Assembly (NCBI GenBank): GCA_015075175.1
Contig: JABTUV010000004.1
Coordinates: forward strand, 62,001 to 126,000
Direction: 5' to 3'
Length of the DNA stretch: 64,000 bases
Origin: a bacterium
Lineage (GTDB): Bacteria; Hinthialibacterota; Hinthialibacteria; H5-UNCL2
Shown here: piece by piece, positions 1,761 through 29,663 of the stretch
How the letters are laid out: each line of letters opens with the position of its first letter
Numbering within the stretch: the stretch's first letter is position 1
Notes under the pieces: model-generated
Database searches by the model: none
Told to the model about the DNA's origin: nothing
The model's input: the letters and a program-made list of their open reading frames with translations, nothing else
Position numbers and translations under genes: made by a program

Positions 1761-3619
1761 GGGGCGCGCCGGGCGCCTTGCGCCAATTGAGCATGGATGC
1801 GTTGGGCCAGTTGGACCGAAATGCCGGGAACGCGGGCGATCTCGCCCGGGGTGGCGCGCGACAGTCCCTCCAGCGAGCCGAAGTGGCGGATGAGGCGCAG
1901 CTTGCGCGCACGCCCGACGCCGGGAACGGCGTCCAGGGTCGAGGCCTCGGTCAAGCGACGGCGCAGCGCGCGATGGTAGGTGACGGCGAAGCGGTGGGCT
2001 TCGTCGCGGATCGCCTGCAAGAGATGCAGCGCCGGATCATCCCGCTCCATGCGCAGGGGCTGCGACGAGGTGCAGGTGAAGACCAGCTCCTCTTCCTTGG
2101 CGAGACTGATGGTGGGAAATCGTCCCGCGCCGACGGCTTCCATCGCCTTGCGCGCGGCGTGGAGGTGGCCGAGGCCACCGTCGACGACGACCAGATGAGG
2201 AGGCTCGGCGAAGCGGTCGGCCTCAGGTGTGGAGAGCTGAGCCACTCCGTCCGGGGACAGGTCCAGCCCGTGGGTGAAGCGGCGCGAGAGCATTTCCGCC
2301 ATCATGGCGTAGTCGTCGGGGAATTCCTCGCGGCGGATTTTGAACTTGCGGTAGCTGCTCTTCTGCGGACGTCCGCCCCGGAAGACGACCAGGGAACCGA
2401 CCGCCTGTTTGCCCTGCAAGTTGGAGATGTCGTAACACTCGATGCGCATGGGGGGATCGGAAAGGCCGAGATGTTCGGCCAGTCGCACCAGGCCGGGATG
2501 CAGCGGTCCGGTGATGCCGTGGAGTTTGCGGTAGCGTTCCTCCCCGCGGAAGGCGGCGTTCTTCTCCGCCAGGGCGAGCATGGCGCGCTTGTCGCCGCGC
2601 TGCGGCACGCGCACTTCCACGGCCCGCTCGGCGCGCTCCGCCAGCCAGGATTCCAGCGTGTCGGCGTTGTCGGGAAGGGATGAACAAAGTAGACGGTGCG
2701 GAATGGTAGTACGAAAGGCGTAGTGCTGGAGAATGAACGCGGCGAAGATTTCCCCCTCGGGCACGCCCTCGGTCTCCTTCAGAAAGTAGTGTTCGCCGGA
2801 GGAGAGCTTGCCTTCATAGCGCCGCATGACGGTCATACAGGTGACGTCGTGAAAGCGCGCCAAGGCGAGGTAGTCTTCGTCTTCCTGTCGCAGGGCGATC
2901 ATTTTTTGCTTTTCGACGACTTTGTCCATGCTCGTGAGCATGTCGCGGTAGAAGGCGGCTTTCTCGAACATCTGGCGGGCGGCGAAATCCTGCATGCGCT
3001 TCTCGATGCCGGCGCGTACGTCGCGGCGGCGGCCCAGGAGGTAGGCCTCGACCTGGCGGCAGAGGTCGCGGTACTCGCCGCGGGTCGCCGCCGCAATGCA
3101 AGGGGCGACGCAGCGGCCCATTTCATAGTCGATGCAGGGGCGGGGCAGGTTGAGTTTGTGCGAGGGATACTTGCAGGAGCGGATGGGGAAGATTTCGTGC
3201 AGGGCGCGCAGGATGAAACGAGCCGGGCGCACGCTGGGGAAGGGGCCGAAGTAGGACGCCCCGTCGCGCGCCGCCCGCCGCACGACCGTGAGGCGCGGAT
3301 AGTCCTCGTTCCAGGAGAGCTTGATATAGGGGTAACGCTTGTCGTCCTTCAGCTGCACGTTGTAGCGCGGGAGGTGCTTCTGCACGAGGGTGTGTTCGAG
3401 CAGGAGGGCTTCGCCTTCCGTGTCGGTCAGGAGCACGTCGATGGTCGCCACGTGGGCCTTGAAGGTCTCCTGGCGCGGACCGGTGAAGTGGGAGCGGACG
3501 CGTTTCTGGCGCGACTTGGCCTTGCCGATGTAGAGGATGGCTCCGTAGGCGTCTTTCATTAAGTTGACGCCGGGGGAGTCGGGCAACTGGTTGATGCGGG
3601 CCTTCAGTTCCTCGCGCAT
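1757..3619 (-). CDS. uvrC: Excinuclease ABC subunit C (UvrC)
   Basis: UvrC makes both incisions in nucleotide excision repair together with UvrB. I chose the ATG at 3619 (MREELKARINQLPDSPG), which aligns with the family start; an upstream extension to 3751 would translate a repeat-rich leader. The 620 residues contain an N-terminal GIY-YIG domain (about 12-92), a UVR/UvrB-binding motif (about 200-235), an RNase H-like nuclease domain with RIECYDISNLQG, VVVDGGLGHL and HRFAVTYHR carrying the expected acidic and His residues, and C-terminal helix-hairpin-helix motifs. Oddity: residue 19, normally the Tyr of the 'GIY' element (PGVY), is Asn (PGVN), while Tyr30, Lys33 and Arg40 are kept. First gene of the uvrC-DUF374-recN run. 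Confidence 0.95.
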   Translation of the reverse strand: MREELKARINQLPDSPGVNLMKDAYGAILYIGKAKSRQKRVRSHFTGPRQETFKAHVATIDVLLTDTEGEALLLEHTLVQKHLPRYNVQLKDDKRYPYIKLSWNEDYPRLTVVRRAARDGASYFGPFPSVRPARFILRALHEIFPIRSCKYPSHKLNLPRPCIDYEMGRCVAPCIAAATRGEYRDLCRQVEAYLLGRRRDVRAGIEKRMQDFAARQMFEKAAFYRDMLTSMDKVVEKQKMIALRQEDEDYLALARFHDVTCMTVMRRYEGKLSSGEHYFLKETEGVPEGEIFAAFILQHYAFRTTIPHRLLCSSLPDNADTLESWLAERAERAVEVRVPQRGDKRAMLALAEKNAAFRGEERYRKLHGITGPLHPGLVRLAEHLGLSDPPMRIECYDISNLQGKQAVGSLVVFRGGRPQKSSYRKFKIRREEFPDDYAMMAEMLSRRFTHGLDLSPDGVAQLSTPEADRFAEPPHLVVVDGGLGHLHAARKAMEAVGAGRFPTISLAKEEELVFTCTSSQPLRMERDDPALHLLQAIRDEAHRFAVTYHRALRRRLTEASTLDAVPGVGRARKLRLIRHFGSLEGLSRATPGEIARVPGISVQLAQRIHAQLAQGARRAP

Positions 3620-3652
3620 GGCGGGTGCAGTATAGCACGGCTCGGGCGACAG

Positions 3653-3692
3653 GGCGATAGGACCCATAGGACTCATGGGACCCATGGGACGT
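3653..3692. repeat. Phased GGAC(C/T)CAT(A/G) short tandem repeat upstream of uvrC
   Basis: Imperfect units of about 9-10 bp of the form GGACCCATA / GGACTCATG / GGACCCATG follow each other just 5' of the uvrC start. Related GGAC-type units recur at 55877-55907 and, in the other orientation, at 55987-56015. Seen directly; function unknown. Confidence 0.6.
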
Positions 3693-3801
3693 GTGGCGCG
3701 GGACTCCATGGGGCAGGCCGGCCTCGATAGCATGGGGTTGTCATTGGCCATAACTTGGCCGTAGCATGGCGCTTTAAGAGACTGTCGTCAGGAGGCCGCC
3801 C

Positions 3802-5355
3802 ATGTTGTGCGTTCGCTCATTCTGCGTCGTCGCCGGACTGAATGTCGCGTTCTTGGCGGGCGCACCATCCCGCGTCGCAGACTCCGTTCCCGAAAACGTG
3901 CTCGTCGTGCATTGCGACCAGGGCAAGGACCTGATCTCCCGCAACATCTATGGTCACTTCGCCGAGCACCTGGGCGATTGCATCTACGGCGGCGTCTGGG
4001 TGGGCGAAGACAGCCCCATTCCCAACACGCGCGGCATCCGCAAAGACGTGGTGGAGGCGCTGAGGCGCCTGCACGTCCCCGTCTTGCGCTGGCCGGGGGG
4101 ATGTTATGCCGATGAATATCATTGGCGCGAGGGCATCGGCGCGCGTGACCAGCGGCCGGCGACCGTCAATACTCACTGGGGCATGGTGGTCGAGAGTAAC
4201 CATTTTGGCACCCACGAGTTTCTCGACTTCTGCCAGCAGATCGGCGCGGAGGCCTACATTTCCGGCAATCTCGGCAGCGGCACGGTGCAGGAGCTGTCGC
4301 AGTGGGTGGAGTACGTGAATTACAGCGGCGAGAGCGCGCTGGCCGAGCTGCGCCGCAAGAACGGCCGACGAGAACCCTGGGGAGTCACGTACTGGGGCGT
4401 CGGCAACGAAAGCTGGGGCTGCGGCGGTAACATGACGGCGGAGTATTACGCCGACCAGTATCGTCGCTACGCCACCTACCTGCGCGACTACCCGGGAATG
4501 CGAATCACCCGCATTGCCTGCGGCGCCAGCGACGCGGACTACCGCTGGACCGAGGTACTCATGCGCGAGGCGGGCCGCTCCATGCAGGGACTCTCGCTGC
4601 ATCACTACACCTGGGCGCGGGGCAAAACCGCCGACGACTTTGACGAAGCGGGCTGGTTTTCCATCATGAAAAACGCCCGCCTGATGGACGAATTGATCAC
4701 CAAACACTCCGAGATCATGGACAAGTACGATCCCCGCGGCCGTGTGGGTTTGGTCGTCGATGAGTGGGGGACCTGGTACGACGTCGATGCGGGGACCAAT
4801 CCGTCCTTTCTGCGCCAACAGAACACGCTGCGAGACGCGCTTGTCGCCGGGTTGACGCTCAATATCTTCAACAACCACTGCGACCGGGTGAAAATGGCGA
4901 ACCTGGCGCAGCTGGTCAACGTGCTGCAGTCCGTGATCCTGACACAGGGCGAGAAGATGGTCGTGACGCCGACGTACCACGTGATGGAGATGTACCGGCC
5001 GCATCAGGATGCCACGCGACTGCCGGCCGAGCTGGTCTGCCGGGATTACCGCCTGGCGCAGGACCGGTTGCCGGCGTTGTCGGCATCGGCGTCTCGGGAT
5101 GCTTCCGGCGCGATCACGCTTTCGTTATGCAACTTAGACCCTAAGCGGTCCGGGCTGCTGCAATGCGACTTGCGCGGGGCGTCGCCGGCGCGCGTCTCAG
5201 GTCGCATCCTGACGGCGCGCGCCATGAACGCCCACAATACTTTCGACAAACCTCACGCGCTGGAGCCGGCAACCTTCAACGGCGCGAAGCTGACGGGCGC
5301 GACGCTGCAAGTTACGCTCCCGCCCAAATCGGTGGTGGTGTTGCGGCTGGAGTGA
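3802..5355 (+). CDS. Secreted alpha-L-arabinofuranosidase, glycoside hydrolase family 51
   Basis: Retaining GH51 enzyme removing terminal alpha-L-arabinofuranosyl units from arabinan or arabinoxylan. Length 517 aa, usual for the family. The N-terminus has a short basic start and a hydrophobic stretch (residues 5-22) consistent with a signal peptide, so it probably acts in the periplasm or outside. Motifs include [11 protein letters not shown] near residue 48, [13 protein letters not shown] near 96, the acid/base region GVGNESWG near 200 and the nucleophile region [11 protein letters not shown] near 318. A GGAGG-like ribosome site lies just upstream. It stands alone, divergent from uvrC and convergent with the nucleotidyltransferase module. 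With GH28 and GH115 in the same window it indicates use of plant hemicellulose and pectin. Confidence 0.92.
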
Positions 5356-9701: not shown

Positions 9702-9803
9702 ACGCCGCCGTAGGGTTGACGGGGATACGGCCTTGACTTACAGCCTGAGATACTCGAGGTTTGAATAAATGCGAGCCTCTTGGCAGGAGTACTGAAGGAC
9801 GCC

Positions 9804-11039
9804 ATGGGAGAAGGGCAACGGCCGCCGGTCATTGATAACCTGCGAGTCACGAATTACCGCGCCCTGCGGGACCTGGAACTGAAATCGATGACGCCGTTGA
9901 CGGTGCTGGTGGGGCCCAACGGAAGCGGGAAGTCCACCGTTTTTGACGTGTTCGCTTTCCTGTCCGAATGTTTCTTGTATGGTCTGCGCCGAGCTTTGGA
10001 CAAACGCAACAGGTTTTCCGAATTGCGCTCGAGGGGATCGCAAGGGCCGATCACGTTTGAACTTAGGTACCGCGAATCGAGCCACTATCCCAGAATCAAG
10101 TACCACCTGGAGATTGACGAAGGGCCGTATGGGCCGACCGTCAGCCAGGAATGGCTGGAATGGACTCGTGGTCCCCGCGGGCGCCCTTTTCGCTTTCTTG
10201 ATTTTTCCCATGGCAAGGGTCGTGTTATTTCGGGGGAACAACCCGAGGAGAAGGACGAGCGAATTGATGAAACGTTGGACTCGCCGGATGTTCTGGCCGT
10301 CAATACGTTGGGCCAGTTCGCCAAGCATCCGCGCGTCAGCGCGCTGCGCCGCTTCATTACCGACTGGCATCTGTCCTATCTGACCGCCGACAACACGCGA
10401 GGGCTTCCCGAGGCCGGGCCCCAGGAACGGCTTTCCTCGAAAGGGGACAATCTCCCCAACGTCATTCAGTACTTGAAGGAGCGGCATCCCGAACGTTTGG
10501 ACGACATTCTACGGGTTCTGTCGCAGCGTGTTCCCCGTTTGGAAAAAGTTGAAGCGGAACCGCTGGTAGACGGGCGGCTCCTGTTGCGCATCAAGGACGC
10601 GCCTTTTTCCCAGCCGGTCCTGGCCAAGTACGCCTCCGACGGGACGCTGAAAATGCTTGCGTATTTGATGCTGCTTTACGATCCGAGTCCGCCGCAGCTG
10701 ATTGGAATTGAGGAACCCGAAAACCAATTGTATCCGCACCTGCTGCGGGAATTGGCGGAAGAGTGCCGGCAGGCGGCGGGGCGTTCCCAATTGCTGGTGA
10801 CCACCCACTCGCCCCACTTCGTCAATGCCCTGCGGCCCGAGGAGGTGTGGTTCCTGCAACGGGATTCCGACGGTTACACCCGGGCATCTTCAGCTTCTCG
10901 CATTCACGGTATCGAGCAGTTCGTGGAGGCGGGTGCTCAATTAGGTTCCCTGTGGATGGAGAAATTTTTTGAGCTGCCGCCCTGGGAAGAGGACGTTCCC
11001 GGCAAACGGAAACGGTCCCCAGGTCGTGGAAGGGCCTGA
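9804..11039 (+). CDS. AAA family ATPase (RecF/OLD-like), partner of DUF4276 protein
   Basis: A 411-residue ABC/SMC-type ATPase. I chose the ATG at 9804 ([20 protein letters not shown]), preceded by GAAGGA; a TTG at 9780 would add eight residues. Walker [10 protein letters not shown] is at residues 37-45; a signature-like region SDGTLKM and Walker [17 protein letters not shown] lie near 285-315, and the H-loop [11 protein letters not shown] near 335. This layout matches the ATPases of overcoming-lysogenization-defect (OLD), RloA and PARIS AriA type. The DUF4276 gene starts three bases after its stop, so the pair forms one operon. ATPase plus TOPRIM-like partner is the recurring arrangement of several phage-defence systems, and defence is the likeliest role by inference. 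Confidence 0.85.
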
Positions 11040-11042
11040 GCC

Positions 11043-11657
11043 ATGGCGCACGTGGAAGTATTGGTCGAGGAACCCTCCGCGGAAGCCGCGCTGCAGCGAG
11101 TCATTCCCCGTATTCTGCCTTCGAGCAGCTTCCTCATTCATCCCTTCTCAGACAAGCGGGACTTGTTGAACAAATTGCCCCAGCGGCTTGACGGTTATAG
11201 CAGGTGGCTGCCAGCGGACTGGCGGATCGTTGTGTTGTTGGATCGCGACCGTGACGATTGTCGAGAGTTGAAGTCGCAATTGGACGAGTGGGCCGCGCAG
11301 CGTCTCTTGGTGACGCCTTCGCACGCGCAGCGGAATCGCCCCGCGAATCTGGTGAATCGCCTCGCCATCGAGGAGCTGGAAGCGTGGTTTTTCGGGGACA
11401 TCGAGGCCTTGCGCGCGGCCTACCCCCGCGTGCCCGCCAATCTGGGCAAGCGAGCGCCGTATCGCGATCCCGACGCCATTGCCGGTGGTACGTGGGAAGC
11501 TTTGGAGCGAGTACTGCGGAAGGCCGGCTATTATCCGACTGGATTGCCCAAAATCGAAGTCGCCCGGCGCGTTTCAGAATATATGGACCCTGACCGCAAC
11601 CACTCCAGGAGCTTCCAGGTCTTCCGCGACGGGTTGCGCCGCCTTGTCGGAGCGTGA
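11043..11657 (+). CDS. DUF4276 family protein (TOPRIM-like effector candidate)
   Basis: A 204-residue protein of the DUF4276 family. VEVLVEEPSAEAAL at residues 4-17 provides the first conserved acidic residues of a TOPRIM-like fold, and IVVLLDRDRDDCRELK near 62-77 the DxD motif; RLAIEELEAWFFGD near 105 is a further family hallmark. Such a fold suggests a metal-dependent nuclease or related activity, as in OLD and AriB partners. It follows its ATPase by 3 bases and its stop lies only 12 bases from the stop of the convergent DUF488 gene. Family membership is well supported; the role as a defence effector is inferred from the ATPase pairing. Confidence 0.78.
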   Translation: MAHVEVLVEEPSAEAALQRVIPRILPSSSFLIHPFSDKRDLLNKLPQRLDGYSRWLPADWRIVVLLDRDRDDCRELKSQLDEWAAQRLLVTPSHAQRNRPANLVNRLAIEELEAWFFGDIEALRAAYPRVPANLGKRAPYRDPDAIAGGTWEALERVLRKAGYYPTGLPKIEVARRVSEYMDPDRNHSRSFQVFRDGLRRLVGA

Positions 11658-11669
11658 ACTCGGGCGCCG

Positions 11670-12107
11670 CTATCCCAAGTGCACGATCTCCACGTCGCCC
11701 CATTTTTCGCTCAGGTACTCCGCGACCAGCCGGCGGTGGCAGCACTCGGGTTTCTCTTCGCTGCAAAGCAGGCATGCGTTGTCCAGCGTCTCGCGCGAGA
11801 GGGTCTCTTCGACCTTGCGCTCGCGCATGAGCGCCAGGAAGTCGCGCTCGTAGGTTTCCCAGTCGCCCTTGTTTTTCCTGTAGGCGTCCAGGATATCCTG
11901 CGTCGGGGCCAGCTCGGGCAGGTGCACGTAATCGATATCACAGATACTCTTGACGAAAAAACGCAAGTCGTTCCTCTTGGCAAAACCGGCCAATTGTGAG
12001 GTATTGTTGAGTCGAATATCCACCAGCCGCGCGACGCCCGCGCGGGTAAGAGCGGTGAAGAACGCTTCGGCGGATTTCTTGGTGAAGCCGATGGTGAAAA
12101 TCTTCAC
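11670..12107 (-). CDS. DUF488 family protein, first copy (distal)
   Basis: A 145-residue DUF488 protein. I chose the GTG at 12107 (VKIFTIGFTKKSAEAFF) because it overlaps the upstream gene's restored stop as GTGA; an ATG at 12122 would add five residues. Core features are FTIGFTKKS at the N-terminus, VDIRLNN (about residue 30) and the Cys/His pattern CLLCSEEKPECCHRR (about 110), which may bind metal or form the active site. DUF488 proteins have no established biochemical function. It is the last gene of a three-gene minus-strand cassette with a second DUF488 gene and a dual-OB protein. Confidence 0.8.
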   Translation of the reverse strand: MKIFTIGFTKKSAEAFFTALTRAGVARLVDIRLNNTSQLAGFAKRNDLRFFVKSICDIDYVHLPELAPTQDILDAYRKNKGDWETYERDFLALMRERKVEETLSRETLDNACLLCSEEKPECCHRRLVAEYLSEKWGDVEIVHLG

Positions 12108-12723
12108 GGCTCGTCGCTCCATTGCAACTCATCATCCAAACCAGATTCCGCCTGCCGGTACCCGATGCGCTCGCCCTGGCGCAGGTAGGCGTCCTCGATG
12201 ATCTCTCGCGGGTGCGAAAGAGGTCGTGCTCCATCTTCAGCAACCGGAGAAGGCGCCGGATCGCCCGCTCGTGACTTTCCAGAGACCCGTCGTCCAGAAT
12301 ATGTTCGATGCGGGCGCCGCGCGCCGCCAGATGGCGGGAGACGAGAATGGTGCGATGGCAGGCGAGGGGGTCCTTCTCCGCGCACATGAGCGCGAGGCGC
12401 CGGGACTTGGCGGCCTCCAACACTTCGTTCAGTCCGCGCTGGAAGGCCTCGGTTTGGGCCAGGCGTTCATAGCTGACTCTGCCGTTCACGTAACAGGCGG
12501 GATCGTCGCTGCGCGCTCCCAGCTCCCTGCCCAGGAAGACGTACTCGATGCCCTGCGGCGGCAGCGTCGATTGCAGCACATCGCGGTTGAATTGGGGATT
12601 CATGGCGCTGTAGGGGCTGGAGCGCACGTCGTAGAGCGCAAGGACGCCATGCTGCTGCAAGAGTTCCAGCAGCCGCTCGAGGGGATGCGTGGAATGGCCG
12701 ATGGTGAAGATGGGCCGGCTCAT
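12104..12723 (-). CDS. DUF488 family protein, second copy (one frameshift near 12215)
   Basis: Starts at 12723 (MSRPIFTIGHSTHPLERLLELL) and shows the full DUF488 pattern: YDVRSSPYS near residue 32, FLGRELGAR near 63, MCAEKDPLACHR near 112 and the C-terminal helix. After LLKMEHDLFRTRE the homologous end (IIEDAYLRQGERIGYRQAE) lies one frame over, so a single indel near 12215 must be assumed; read straight, the frame runs on to 11938 as unrelated sequence. Its ATG overlaps the stop of the dual-OB gene by 4 bases and its corrected end overlaps the next DUF488 gene by 4 bases, a tight translational coupling of three genes. Confidence 0.75.
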
Positions 12724-13420
12724 GGCGCCTCTCCGAGCGGCGTCTCTGTGATGATGGTCGCGACCAGCTTGTATACGCAGCCCTTGTACTCCTCGCTCAA
12801 ACTAAGACAGAGAAAAGCGTCGAGCATGGGGAATTCTCCGTCGTTTTTCCCGCCGAAAGCGGCGTCCAGGAGCGGGTCGGTCGCCGGGAAGTCATAGTCC
12901 CGTCCCCGATAGGTGAAGGCGGCGCGGTAGCGCTTGCGGCGCTTTCCGTACTCGTCCACGAACGTAGTCGCGCGGACCACGGTCCGGTCTACGTGAATAA
13001 GCGCGAGGGAAGTGGAGAGCTGCGAGGCTTGGTCCAGGCTCATGCGGTTGTTTCGGCCGCTGCCGCTGGAGTCGCCGTCGATCCAGAGCGAGGGGGGCTG
13101 GTCCATCAAGAGCGGCAGGAGGTCCCAGGATGCGCGGCCGACTTTGCGCCAGCGGGCGTTCTCGGCGATCACGTGGTTTTCCGTCTGATAGTAGTGAGGG
13201 CGGGGGCGCTCGAGCGGCACGTCGAGGATGTCGAGCACGGCCGGATCGCCGCCGTCGGTGTAACAGCGGTCGGAGAGCGTCAGTTCGCCGCAGGGACGCG
13301 GGCTGACGGGGCGTATCCAGGCGCCGTAGCCGTCGGGCAGGACCTCCTTGCCGGCCACGCAGCGCTCCCAGTTCTTCTTCGAGTTGGCAAAGCAGACGAT
13401 CCGCTTGGTGTGTAACTCAT
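12720..13420 (-). CDS. Dual-OB domain protein, head of DUF488 cassette (start disrupted)
   Basis: The body (CVAGKEVLPDGYGAWIRPVS onward) resembles the dual-OB family: a GAWIRPVS element, DILDVPLERPRPHYYQTENH in the middle, and a second beta-rich half with RYRAAFTYRGRDYDFPATDP and LCLSLSEEYKGCVYKLVATI near the end. OB folds commonly bind nucleic acid. Family-like residues (KRIVCFANSKKNWERC) precede the first in-frame start at 13358, so the true start is probably the ATG at 13420 with a 2-base slip in ACACACC. The stop overlaps the next gene's ATG. Dual-OB proteins have been linked to conflict systems by comparative genomics; the link to DUF488 here is seen directly, its function inferred. Confidence 0.65.
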
Positions 13421-27451: not shown

Positions 27452-28669
27452 ATGTTCAAGATTCTCAAAGAGATGTGGGCCGAGAAACGGACCGTCAAGA
27501 GCCTGGAGGAACGCATTCCCGGCCTCTTGCCGAGCGAACTGTTTCACGCCGAGTGCCGCAAGGAGAAAATGCGTGCGGACCGCACGCTGGTGCCGTTCAC
27601 GCTGCTCGTCTTCGACGTGGTCAACACCACCGGCGACCATCGCTCGCGGGAGTTGGCGCTGGAGGTGCTGGGTTCGATCGTGGTGCGGTGCAGCCGGGGC
27701 AGCGACACGCGGGGGTGGCATCGTTCGGGCGAACGGCTGCAACTGGGACTGCTCCTGCACAATACCGACGCGGGCAAGGCCGAACGGGTGATTCGCACGG
27801 TGCGCGAGCAGTTCCGGCAGCTGGCCTCGGGGTATCACATTCATAACGGCAAGCCGGCGGAGATCGTGTGCGAGGCGGCGACCTATCCCAACGTGGCCAT
27901 CGACGGCGAGCCGCCGGCGCCCGAACCGGACCGCCAGAAGGCGCGCTCCAATATGGCCCGCATCGAGGGGCGGTTGCTGCGCAGTTCGCTGCCCTGGTGG
28001 AAACGCAGCACCGACATCGTCATGTCGCTCACGGCCCTCCTCTTCCTGTCGCCGATCATGCTGGCGGTGGCGGCGCTGATCAAGCTGGTGTCGCCCGGGC
28101 CGGTGTTCTTCCGGCAGCAGCGGGTGGGCTACCTGGGTCGCGCCTTCACGCTGTACAAGTTCCGCACCATGCACGTCAATTTCGACGCCTCCATCCACGA
28201 GCAGCACCTGGCGCGATTGATCGCCACGCGCAAAGAAGGGGCGCCCGACGGCGACCAGCCGATGCAGAAGCTGGACGACAACAACCCGCAGATCATTCCG
28301 TTCGGGCGCTTTCTGCGCAAGGCGTGCCTGGACGAGCTGCCGCAGCTATTCAACGTGCTGCGCGGCGAGATGAGCCTGGTGGGACCGCGTCCGCCGATTC
28401 CCTACGAGGTCAAGGAGTATCTGCGCTGGCACTCGATGCGCTTTGACGCGGTTCCGGGCATGACCGGGCTGTGGCAGGTCAGCGGCAAGAACCGCACCAC
28501 TTTCAAGGAGATGATCCGGCTGGACATCCGCTACGCCTGCCAGCGGTCGTTTCTTTTAGACATGAAGATCATTCTGAAGACCGTGCCGGTGGTCATGTCG
28601 CAGCTTTACAGCAAGGCGACGGTGGCCCGGCCCCGTCCGACCGTGGTGGAGGCGCAGGAAAATGCTTAA
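27452..28669 (+). CDS. Priming sugar transferase with extra N-terminal GGDEF-like domain
   Basis: The C-terminal half (about 180-405) is a bacterial sugar transferase (WcaJ/PglC superfamily) that places the first sugar phosphate on undecaprenyl phosphate: a membrane helix at WWKRSTDIVMSLTALLFLS, KLVSPGPVFFRQQRVG, LYKFRTMH, CLDELPQLFNVLRGEMSLVG and GMTGLWQVSGKN. The N-terminal 165 residues are soluble and not the usual transmembrane or Rossmann region; VPFTLLVFDVVNTTGDH and SRGSDTRGWHRSGERLQLGL resemble a degenerate diguanylate cyclase fold. A GGAGGAGC ribosome site precedes the ATG. The stop overlaps the next gene's ATG by 8 bases. Confidence 0.85.
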   Translation: MFKILKEMWAEKRTVKSLEERIPGLLPSELFHAECRKEKMRADRTLVPFTLLVFDVVNTTGDHRSRELALEVLGSIVVRCSRGSDTRGWHRSGERLQLGLLLHNTDAGKAERVIRTVREQFRQLASGYHIHNGKPAEIVCEAATYPNVAIDGEPPAPEPDRQKARSNMARIEGRLLRSSLPWWKRSTDIVMSLTALLFLSPIMLAVAALIKLVSPGPVFFRQQRVGYLGRAFTLYKFRTMHVNFDASIHEQHLARLIATRKEGAPDGDQPMQKLDDNNPQIIPFGRFLRKACLDELPQLFNVLRGEMSLVGPRPPIPYEVKEYLRWHSMRFDAVPGMTGLWQVSGKNRTTFKEMIRLDIRYACQRSFLLDMKIILKTVPVVMSQLYSKATVARPRPTVVEAQENA

Positions 28670-29663
28670 CATTGCGGTCGTTGGCTGCGGTTACTGGGGT
28701 CCGAACCTGGTACGGAACTTCCGGTCGTTGCACGACTGCCGGGTGAAGGCGGTGTGCGACCTGGACGGGGATCGGCTGTCACACCTGGTGGAGTTGTATC
28801 CCGGGGTGGAGGCGGTGACGGATTTCGGGCGCGTGGTGGAGGACGGGGAGGTGCAGGCGGTGGCGGTGGCGACGCCGGTGCGTTTCCATTACGAGCTGGC
28901 GCGGGAGGCGTTGGCCGCGGGCAAGCACGTCTTCATCGAGAAGCCCATGGCCAGCCAGCGGCGGACGAGTGTCGCCAGTTGATCCGGCTGGCCGAGGAGG
29001 TCCGGCGCACGCTGATGGTGGGCCACACGTTCATTTACACGCCGGTGGTGAGGCGCATCAAGGAGATCGTGGACGCGGGGGACCTGGGCGAGATTCTCTA
29101 TATCAGCTCGCGGCGCCTGAATCTGGGGTTGTTTTAGAAGGATATCAACGGGCCTGGGACCTGGCGCCGTACGACATCCGATCATCCTGTATCTTCTGGC
29201 GAGGTGCCGGCGCGGGTCAACTGCCAGGGCAGGCACGTGGCGCCGGGCATCGAGGACGTGACCAACATCTCGCTGACTTCCGCAACGGCGGGTTCGCCAC
29301 CATCCAGAGCAGCTGGCTGGATCCCAACAAGATCCGCGAGATGACCATCGTCGGGGACAAGAAGATGCTGGTCTACGACGACATCGAGCCGCTGGAGAAG
29401 ATCAAGATCTACGACAAGCGCGCAGAGGGACCCTCGCACTACGACACGTTCGCCGAGCCCAGTATTCATACCATTACGGGGACGTATTCCCGCACATCGC
29501 TGCGTCGAGCCACTGCGCGTGGAGTGCCAGCATTTCGTGGACTGCATCCGCACGGGACGCACGCCGGAGACCTCGGGCTGGGACGGACAGGGTGGTGCAG
29601 ATCCTGAGGCGGCCTCGCGTCGATGAGGAACGGCGGGCGAGCGTGGAGATCGCGCTGGACTGA
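28662..29663 (+). pseudogene. Gfo/Idh/MocA family oxidoreductase, several frameshifts
   Basis: NAD(P)-dependent sugar dehydrogenase. The first 105 residues (MLNIAVVGCGYWGPNLVRNF; CDLDGDRL; AVATPVRFHYELAREALAAG; HVFIEKPMA) read cleanly. After 28970 the protein continues through other frames: CRQLIRLAEEVRRTLMVGHTF, YISSRRLNLGLF, WDLAPYDI, IEDVTNISL, FATIQSSWLDPNKIREMTIV, YDDIEPLEKIKIYDK and VECQHFVDCIRTGRTPETSG, ending at 29663. At least five indels are needed in 700 bases. The family includes WbpB/WlbA, which oxidise C3 of UDP-N-acetyl-glucosaminuronate; the WbpD-like and second DegT genes at 50.8-52.4 kb would be natural partners. Confidence 0.8.

Follow-up and report, generated by a model that had tools for sequence, protein, structure and literature searches.

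A DuOB–DUF488 gene cassette matching the phage-defence candidate PDC-M45 and its possible action on nucleic-acid ends

The three genes located on the minus strand at 11670-13420 of the window (the whole 64,000-nucleotide stretch of bacterial DNA that was analysed) belong, according to profile matches, to the PADLOC phage-defence candidate PDC-M45. All are co-directional, in the order DuOB (A), DUF488 (B), DUF488 (C). Most likely the cassette encodes an enzyme complex for nucleic-acid ends, with a role that the evidence leaves compatible with defence as well as with genome maintenance. To the catalogue entry the present analysis adds the interchange of DUF488-B and mSLOG-DUF4326, gene fusions, including those with RecQ, and the cyanobacterial distribution.

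Catalogue identity and reading frames

The assignment to PDC-M45 is based on matches of proteins A, B and C to the models PDC-M45A, PDC-M45B and PDC-M45C (E-values of 1.5e-76, 3e-74 and 3.5e-75, all below 1e-70), encoded by adjacent, co-directional genes in the same order as in the catalogue:

12720..13420, minus strand: gene A, DuOB protein (PDC-M45A), with ATG at 13420, stop at 12720 and an indel straight behind the ATG
12104..12723, minus strand: gene B, DUF488 protein (PDC-M45B), PF04343 at 4.4e-25 and PDC-M45B at 3e-74
11670..12107, minus strand: gene C, DUF488 protein (PDC-M45C) of 145 aa, with a GTG start at 12107 and an alternative ATG at 12122

A preliminary description, made from the letters alone, had named a dual-OB protein and two distinct DUF488 paralogues, and profile searches bore out both family assignments. 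The Pfam family PF22557 (DuOB) matched gene A over profile positions 1-210 of 210 (3.9e-62, 210.4 bits, cut-off 27). Genes B and C exceeded the curated PF04343 cut-off of 22.2 bits, with 89.1 bits (4.4e-25) and 85.8 bits (4.5e-24), respectively, and each has a separate PADLOC model; gene C also matched DUF488-N3a (7.3e-12). The suggestion that the system was undescribed is ruled out, since PADLOC holds PDC-M45 and Pfam models the families. The remark that no experimental description of the trio was known agrees with the literature search, in which neither a paper naming PDC-M45 nor an experiment on the trio was found. The PDC systems are guilt-by-embedding candidates, most of which await experimental validation (PMC12988326), and two others, M63AB and S04, were inactive in a native-host study (PMC12409345). 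The entry PDC-M19 resembles the trio in that a DUF488 adjoins a DuOB-family protein, but it comprises a single DUF488, and the window proteins fit the M45 models far better. A two-gene pair of this kind, DUF488 and a DuOB-like protein at 951-2211 of locus L010, matches M19A and M19B and falls under that separate entry.

The window copy differs from PDC-M45 in carrying two indels, and not one frameshift, as had been assumed. In gene A, the residues MSYTPS... are read in a frame other than that of DuOB, ...ELHTKRIVCFANSKK, which has no start codon in place. In gene B, an apparent extra GA at ~12202-12207 (CGCGAGAGATCATC) follows the DUF488 domain; it throws the sequence out of frame behind LFRTRE, so that the tail to be expected, REIIEDAYLRQGERIGY..., is found in another frame. 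The DUF488 domains of B and C are both intact despite the indels. Once these are allowed for, the A/B junction is ATGA and the B/C junction GTGA, each a 4-base overlap, as given in the preliminary description. Such an overlap is possible in relatives at 38 of 66 A/B and 49 of 88 B/C junctions, figures that are somewhat generous, as the count picks a 4-base start wherever one exists. Because the overlaps recur in relatives, those of the trio are not attributed to chance. That the three genes are decaying into pseudogenes in this genome is quite improbable; this explanation concerns the present copy only and is compatible with the alternatives considered below. Two frame breaks within three genes would fit decay, but the domains are otherwise full length with intact motifs, and a Gfo/Idh oxidoreductase gene of the window (28662-29600, plus strand) is likewise spread over several reading frames. 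Because that unrelated gene is also broken, assembly error is likelier than decay and probably accounts for the indels of the trio.

Motifs and folds of the encoded proteins

To our knowledge, no chemistry has been established for DUF488, a widespread family. Each of the two DUF488 proteins carries a conserved Cys/His motif:

12352..12384, minus strand: motif CAEKDPLACHR, gene B residues 114-124, putative active site with residues invariant in 84 sequences
11730..11765, minus strand: motif CSEEKPECCHRR, gene C residues 115-126, putative active site with residues invariant in 77 sequences

In gene B, the residues C114, E116, P119, C122, H123 and R124 are invariant in 84/84 sequences, and in a wider count the pattern C-x-E...CHR was kept in 87/87, three of which carry V or T where the others have A/S. 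In DuOB, an arginine (R36) is likewise invariant. In gene C, D30, R32, C115, S116, E117, C123, H124, R125, R126 and H143 are invariant among the 77 sequences and C122 varies; the wider count gave CSE...CHR in 127 of 129 rows, with two exceptions, one a fragment and one an N-terminal half. The structure model of gene C (pLDDT 92.5) places C115 at the close of strand 111-115 and R125/R126 at the opening of helix 124-136. Because the key residues are invariant and C122 is not, and because of this strand-end and helix-start position in a confident model, the Cys/His motif of gene C is more suggestive of an active site than of metal binding. Classical PTP and dual-specificity phosphatases have a CX5R signature loop. 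The modelled placement of C115, R125 and R126 corresponds to the layout of this loop in cysteine phosphatases, except that C115 and R125 are separated by nine residues (CX9R) instead of five.

The fold of the gene C model matched the laforin phosphatase domain (Z 7.4), SsoPTP (Z 7.2), diphthine synthase (Z 7.3) and tetrapyrrole methylases (Z 7.9), although Z of 7-8 is a range that, according to the tool itself, may reflect a mere common arrangement. The DUF488-B part of the L067 fusion model matched laforin phosphatase with Z 8.3. Foldseek alone gave no match to the gene C model at E < 0.001, and a sequence search of solved structures with B and C gave none either, the best E-values, 0.99 and 0.31, being those of chance. 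The methyltransferase rows of the fold lists (tetrapyrrole-methylase and borosin type) score level with the phosphatases and are not read as an indication of function. In the same L067 model, DuOB residues 1-105 matched the OB folds of a telomere end-binding protein (Z 7.9), of aminoacyl-tRNA synthetases such as AsnRS (7.3) and of CST (7.2), matches that cover the first half only, the second having been poorly modelled from misaligned input. The first half of DuOB is thus predicted to be OB-like.

Gene arrangements, fusions and genomic setting

The DuOB family search found 9 of 145 diverse genomes positive, every one with an adjoining DUF488. The scans of genomes were keyed on gene C, the DuOB-wide alignment A1 being too diverged for a contig scan, and the census is therefore biased towards loci that contain C. 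They gave at least 539 confirmed gene C relatives, the best 80 loci of which were fetched for inspection, as well as 35 viral contigs. Restriction of the trio to this genome is ruled out by these hundreds of relatives. Home-made profiles sorted 136 inspected loci into 63 A-B-C, 13 B-C-A and 3 AABC or ABCA, so that about 80 have the A-B-C or B-C-A arrangement and the set is widely conserved across genomes. The remainder comprised 26 A-C-D, one D-A-C, two C-D, 13 with C alone, 9 B-C (several at contig edges) and 6 others. Stand-alone DUF488-C genes with the motif kept were observed at L020, L029, L040, L043, L062, L063, L069 and L083, all in genomes that gave no DuOB match; DuOB matches were missing from 8 of 11 genomes with such a C, the genomes being incomplete.

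On plasmids and in prophages, at about 27 loci, the place of gene B is taken by a gene for mSLOG-DUF4326 (D), giving the order A-C-D, and B and D occurred together in 0 of the 136 inspected loci. Gene D consists of mSLOG and DUF4326 according to Pfam (it is annotated as DUF4326 on plasmids), carries a C...CHG motif in 27/27 sequences and, in contrast to A, B and C, has no PADLOC model. The tree of C, built on few columns and with many of its forks left open, requires three changes for the switch from B to D. The Klebsiella plasmid CP052514.1 (L131), 4167 bp long, has the A-C-D cassette at 2370-4028 as its sole three ORFs of at least 100 aa; no near match to A-C-D DNA was found in the E. coli genomes searched. 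Fusions also recur among the loci. A and B are fused in L067, L086 and L090, and B and C in L120. L039 and L080 each encode RecQ, RQC, HRDC, HTH_40 and DuOB in a single frame, and L027 and L068 hold partial copies of this fusion. The RecQ-DuOB fusions, at 317-3187 of L039 (for which HTH_40 is shown) and 6140-9046 of L080, lie upstream of B and C.

The presence of gene D bears on the proposal that the cassette works in nucleotide signalling or as an abortive system of toxin-antitoxin type. The DUF488 and DUF4326 enzymes would then process a derivative of NAD+ or ADP-ribose, and DuOB would sense nucleic acid. The mSLOG domain of D, the occurrence of A-C-D on small plasmids and the proposed action of DUF4326 on ADP-ribose derivatives (PMC9503650; PMC7824862) agree with such a role, as does the prediction, made independently by others, that DUF4326 connects NAD+/ADP-ribose signalling to the modification of DNA (PMC7824862; PMC9503650). 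However, B and C of the window are without a sensor domain, the RecQ fusion points to DNA and no toxin-like pairing was seen, and the signalling proposal is regarded as unlikely.

The distribution of the cassette is uneven. DuOB was present in 121 of 389 genomes related to G060 (~31%), which are called cyanobacteria by inference from a B-C-A order matching that of cyanobacterial loci, nearly always as a single copy and mostly as B-C-A. Synteny of the cyanobacterial loci holds within one family, with no common neighbours beyond it, and in the C tree the cyanobacterial sequences form one group, the others being scattered over phyla. The cyanobacterial cassette looks partly vertical in descent, unlike a typical defence island gene. 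In other bacteria its occurrence is patchy, at 3-6% (9 of 145 and 10 of 290 genomes, in overlapping samples). The cassette is carried on plasmids down to 4.2 kb and in prophages or viral contigs; phage records were searched for DuOB, with no match. One cassette lies within a type III-B CRISPR locus and another near a CBASS operon, and KwaB, IetAS and RmrA are further defence neighbours. In a flank census covering 142 neighbours, 110 PADLOC families were matched at 1e-15, and no enrichment of defence genes is claimed, because none of these families occurred in more than three members and the neighbours have no matched control. In the flanks of the trio loci of alignment A5, two matches to RtcB RNA ligase and two to CARF-type RtcR-like sigma-54 activators were present. 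In the window, two genes convergent with the trio (9780-11657, plus strand), which encode an AAA_21 ATPase and a DUF4276 protein, match HEC-01A and HEC-01B (best 2.1e-165 and 2.6e-88). Because this HEC-01-type pair, itself a PADLOC candidate, adjoins the trio, two candidate defence loci stand back to back.

A chromosomal module for the repair or salvage of nucleic acid, with immunity not as its main role and sometimes carried by mobile elements, would be consistent with the mostly B-C-A single copies in nearly a third of the cyanobacteria-type genomes, with the single cyanobacterial group of C, with synteny inside one family in loci otherwise lacking common neighbours, and with the RecQ-DuOB fusion. 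The patchy scatter over other phyla, the carriage by plasmids and prophages and the defence neighbours at several loci argue in the opposite direction, and the repair or salvage role, a serious alternative, is considered somewhat doubtful.

Proposed action and significance

The reading preferred here, tentatively and at a little less than an even chance, is that the trio is a PDC-M45-type cassette whose products act as one complex on nucleic-acid ends. The sequences themselves establish the gene set and its conservation, the intact motifs of both enzymes, the RecQ fusion and the replacement of B by D; the complex, its substrate, its chemistry and its part in defence are all proposed. DuOB would serve to hold on to an end of DNA (or RNA) that is single-stranded or abnormal in some other way. 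Beside DUF488-C, a second enzyme of this kind would be provided by DUF488-B or, in the mobile variant, by mSLOG-DUF4326. With an active-site cysteine, these enzymes would attach a group (phosphate, sulphur or an ADP-ribose-like moiety) to the terminal sugar or phosphate, take it off or transfer it, and on plasmids, in prophages and beside defence genes this action may be directed against foreign DNA. Action on nucleic acid had already been suggested in the preliminary description, and it is counted as probably right. The end-complex reading is supported by the PADLOC identity, the A-B-C, B-C-A and A-C-D arrangements, the fusions and the invariant motifs of B, C and D, together with the OB-like and phosphatase-like fold matches and the plasmid, prophage, CBASS, type III CRISPR and HEC-01-type settings, and by the independent prediction that ties DUF4326 to NAD+/ADP-ribose signalling and DNA modification. 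Against it stand the middling fold matches (Z 7-8), the CX9R spacing in place of CX5R, the existence of stand-alone C and the lack of a common neighbourhood around the cyanobacterial cassettes.

Burroughs and Aravind reportedly predicted in 2023 that a RapZ-C/DUF488/DUF4326 group of the rhodanese-phosphatase superfamily takes part in DNA-end processing in conflict systems. The swap of DUF488 and DUF4326 within the same cassette resembles the composition of this group, and the fold neighbours obtained here, PTP phosphatases and diphthine synthase, fit the superfamily. A more far-reaching version, which is rather unlikely, can be formulated. DuOB and DUF488-C would form a fixed core, the second catalyst could be either DUF488-B or mSLOG-DUF4326, of which mSLOG-DUF4326 would be gated by a nucleotide signal, and RecQ fusions would feed unwound ends into a cysteine-dependent chemistry of DNA or RNA termini.

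Summarizing, the cassette offers a compact handle on DUF488, since its gene set is fixed, two genes form a shared core, fusions occur naturally and the copies on small plasmids can be transferred to laboratory strains. If it is true that the enzymes act on nucleic-acid ends, this would add a new activity to those of defence or repair. If, on the other hand, the cyanobacterial copies prove to be housekeeping genes, a catalogued phage-defence candidate would need to be reclassified.
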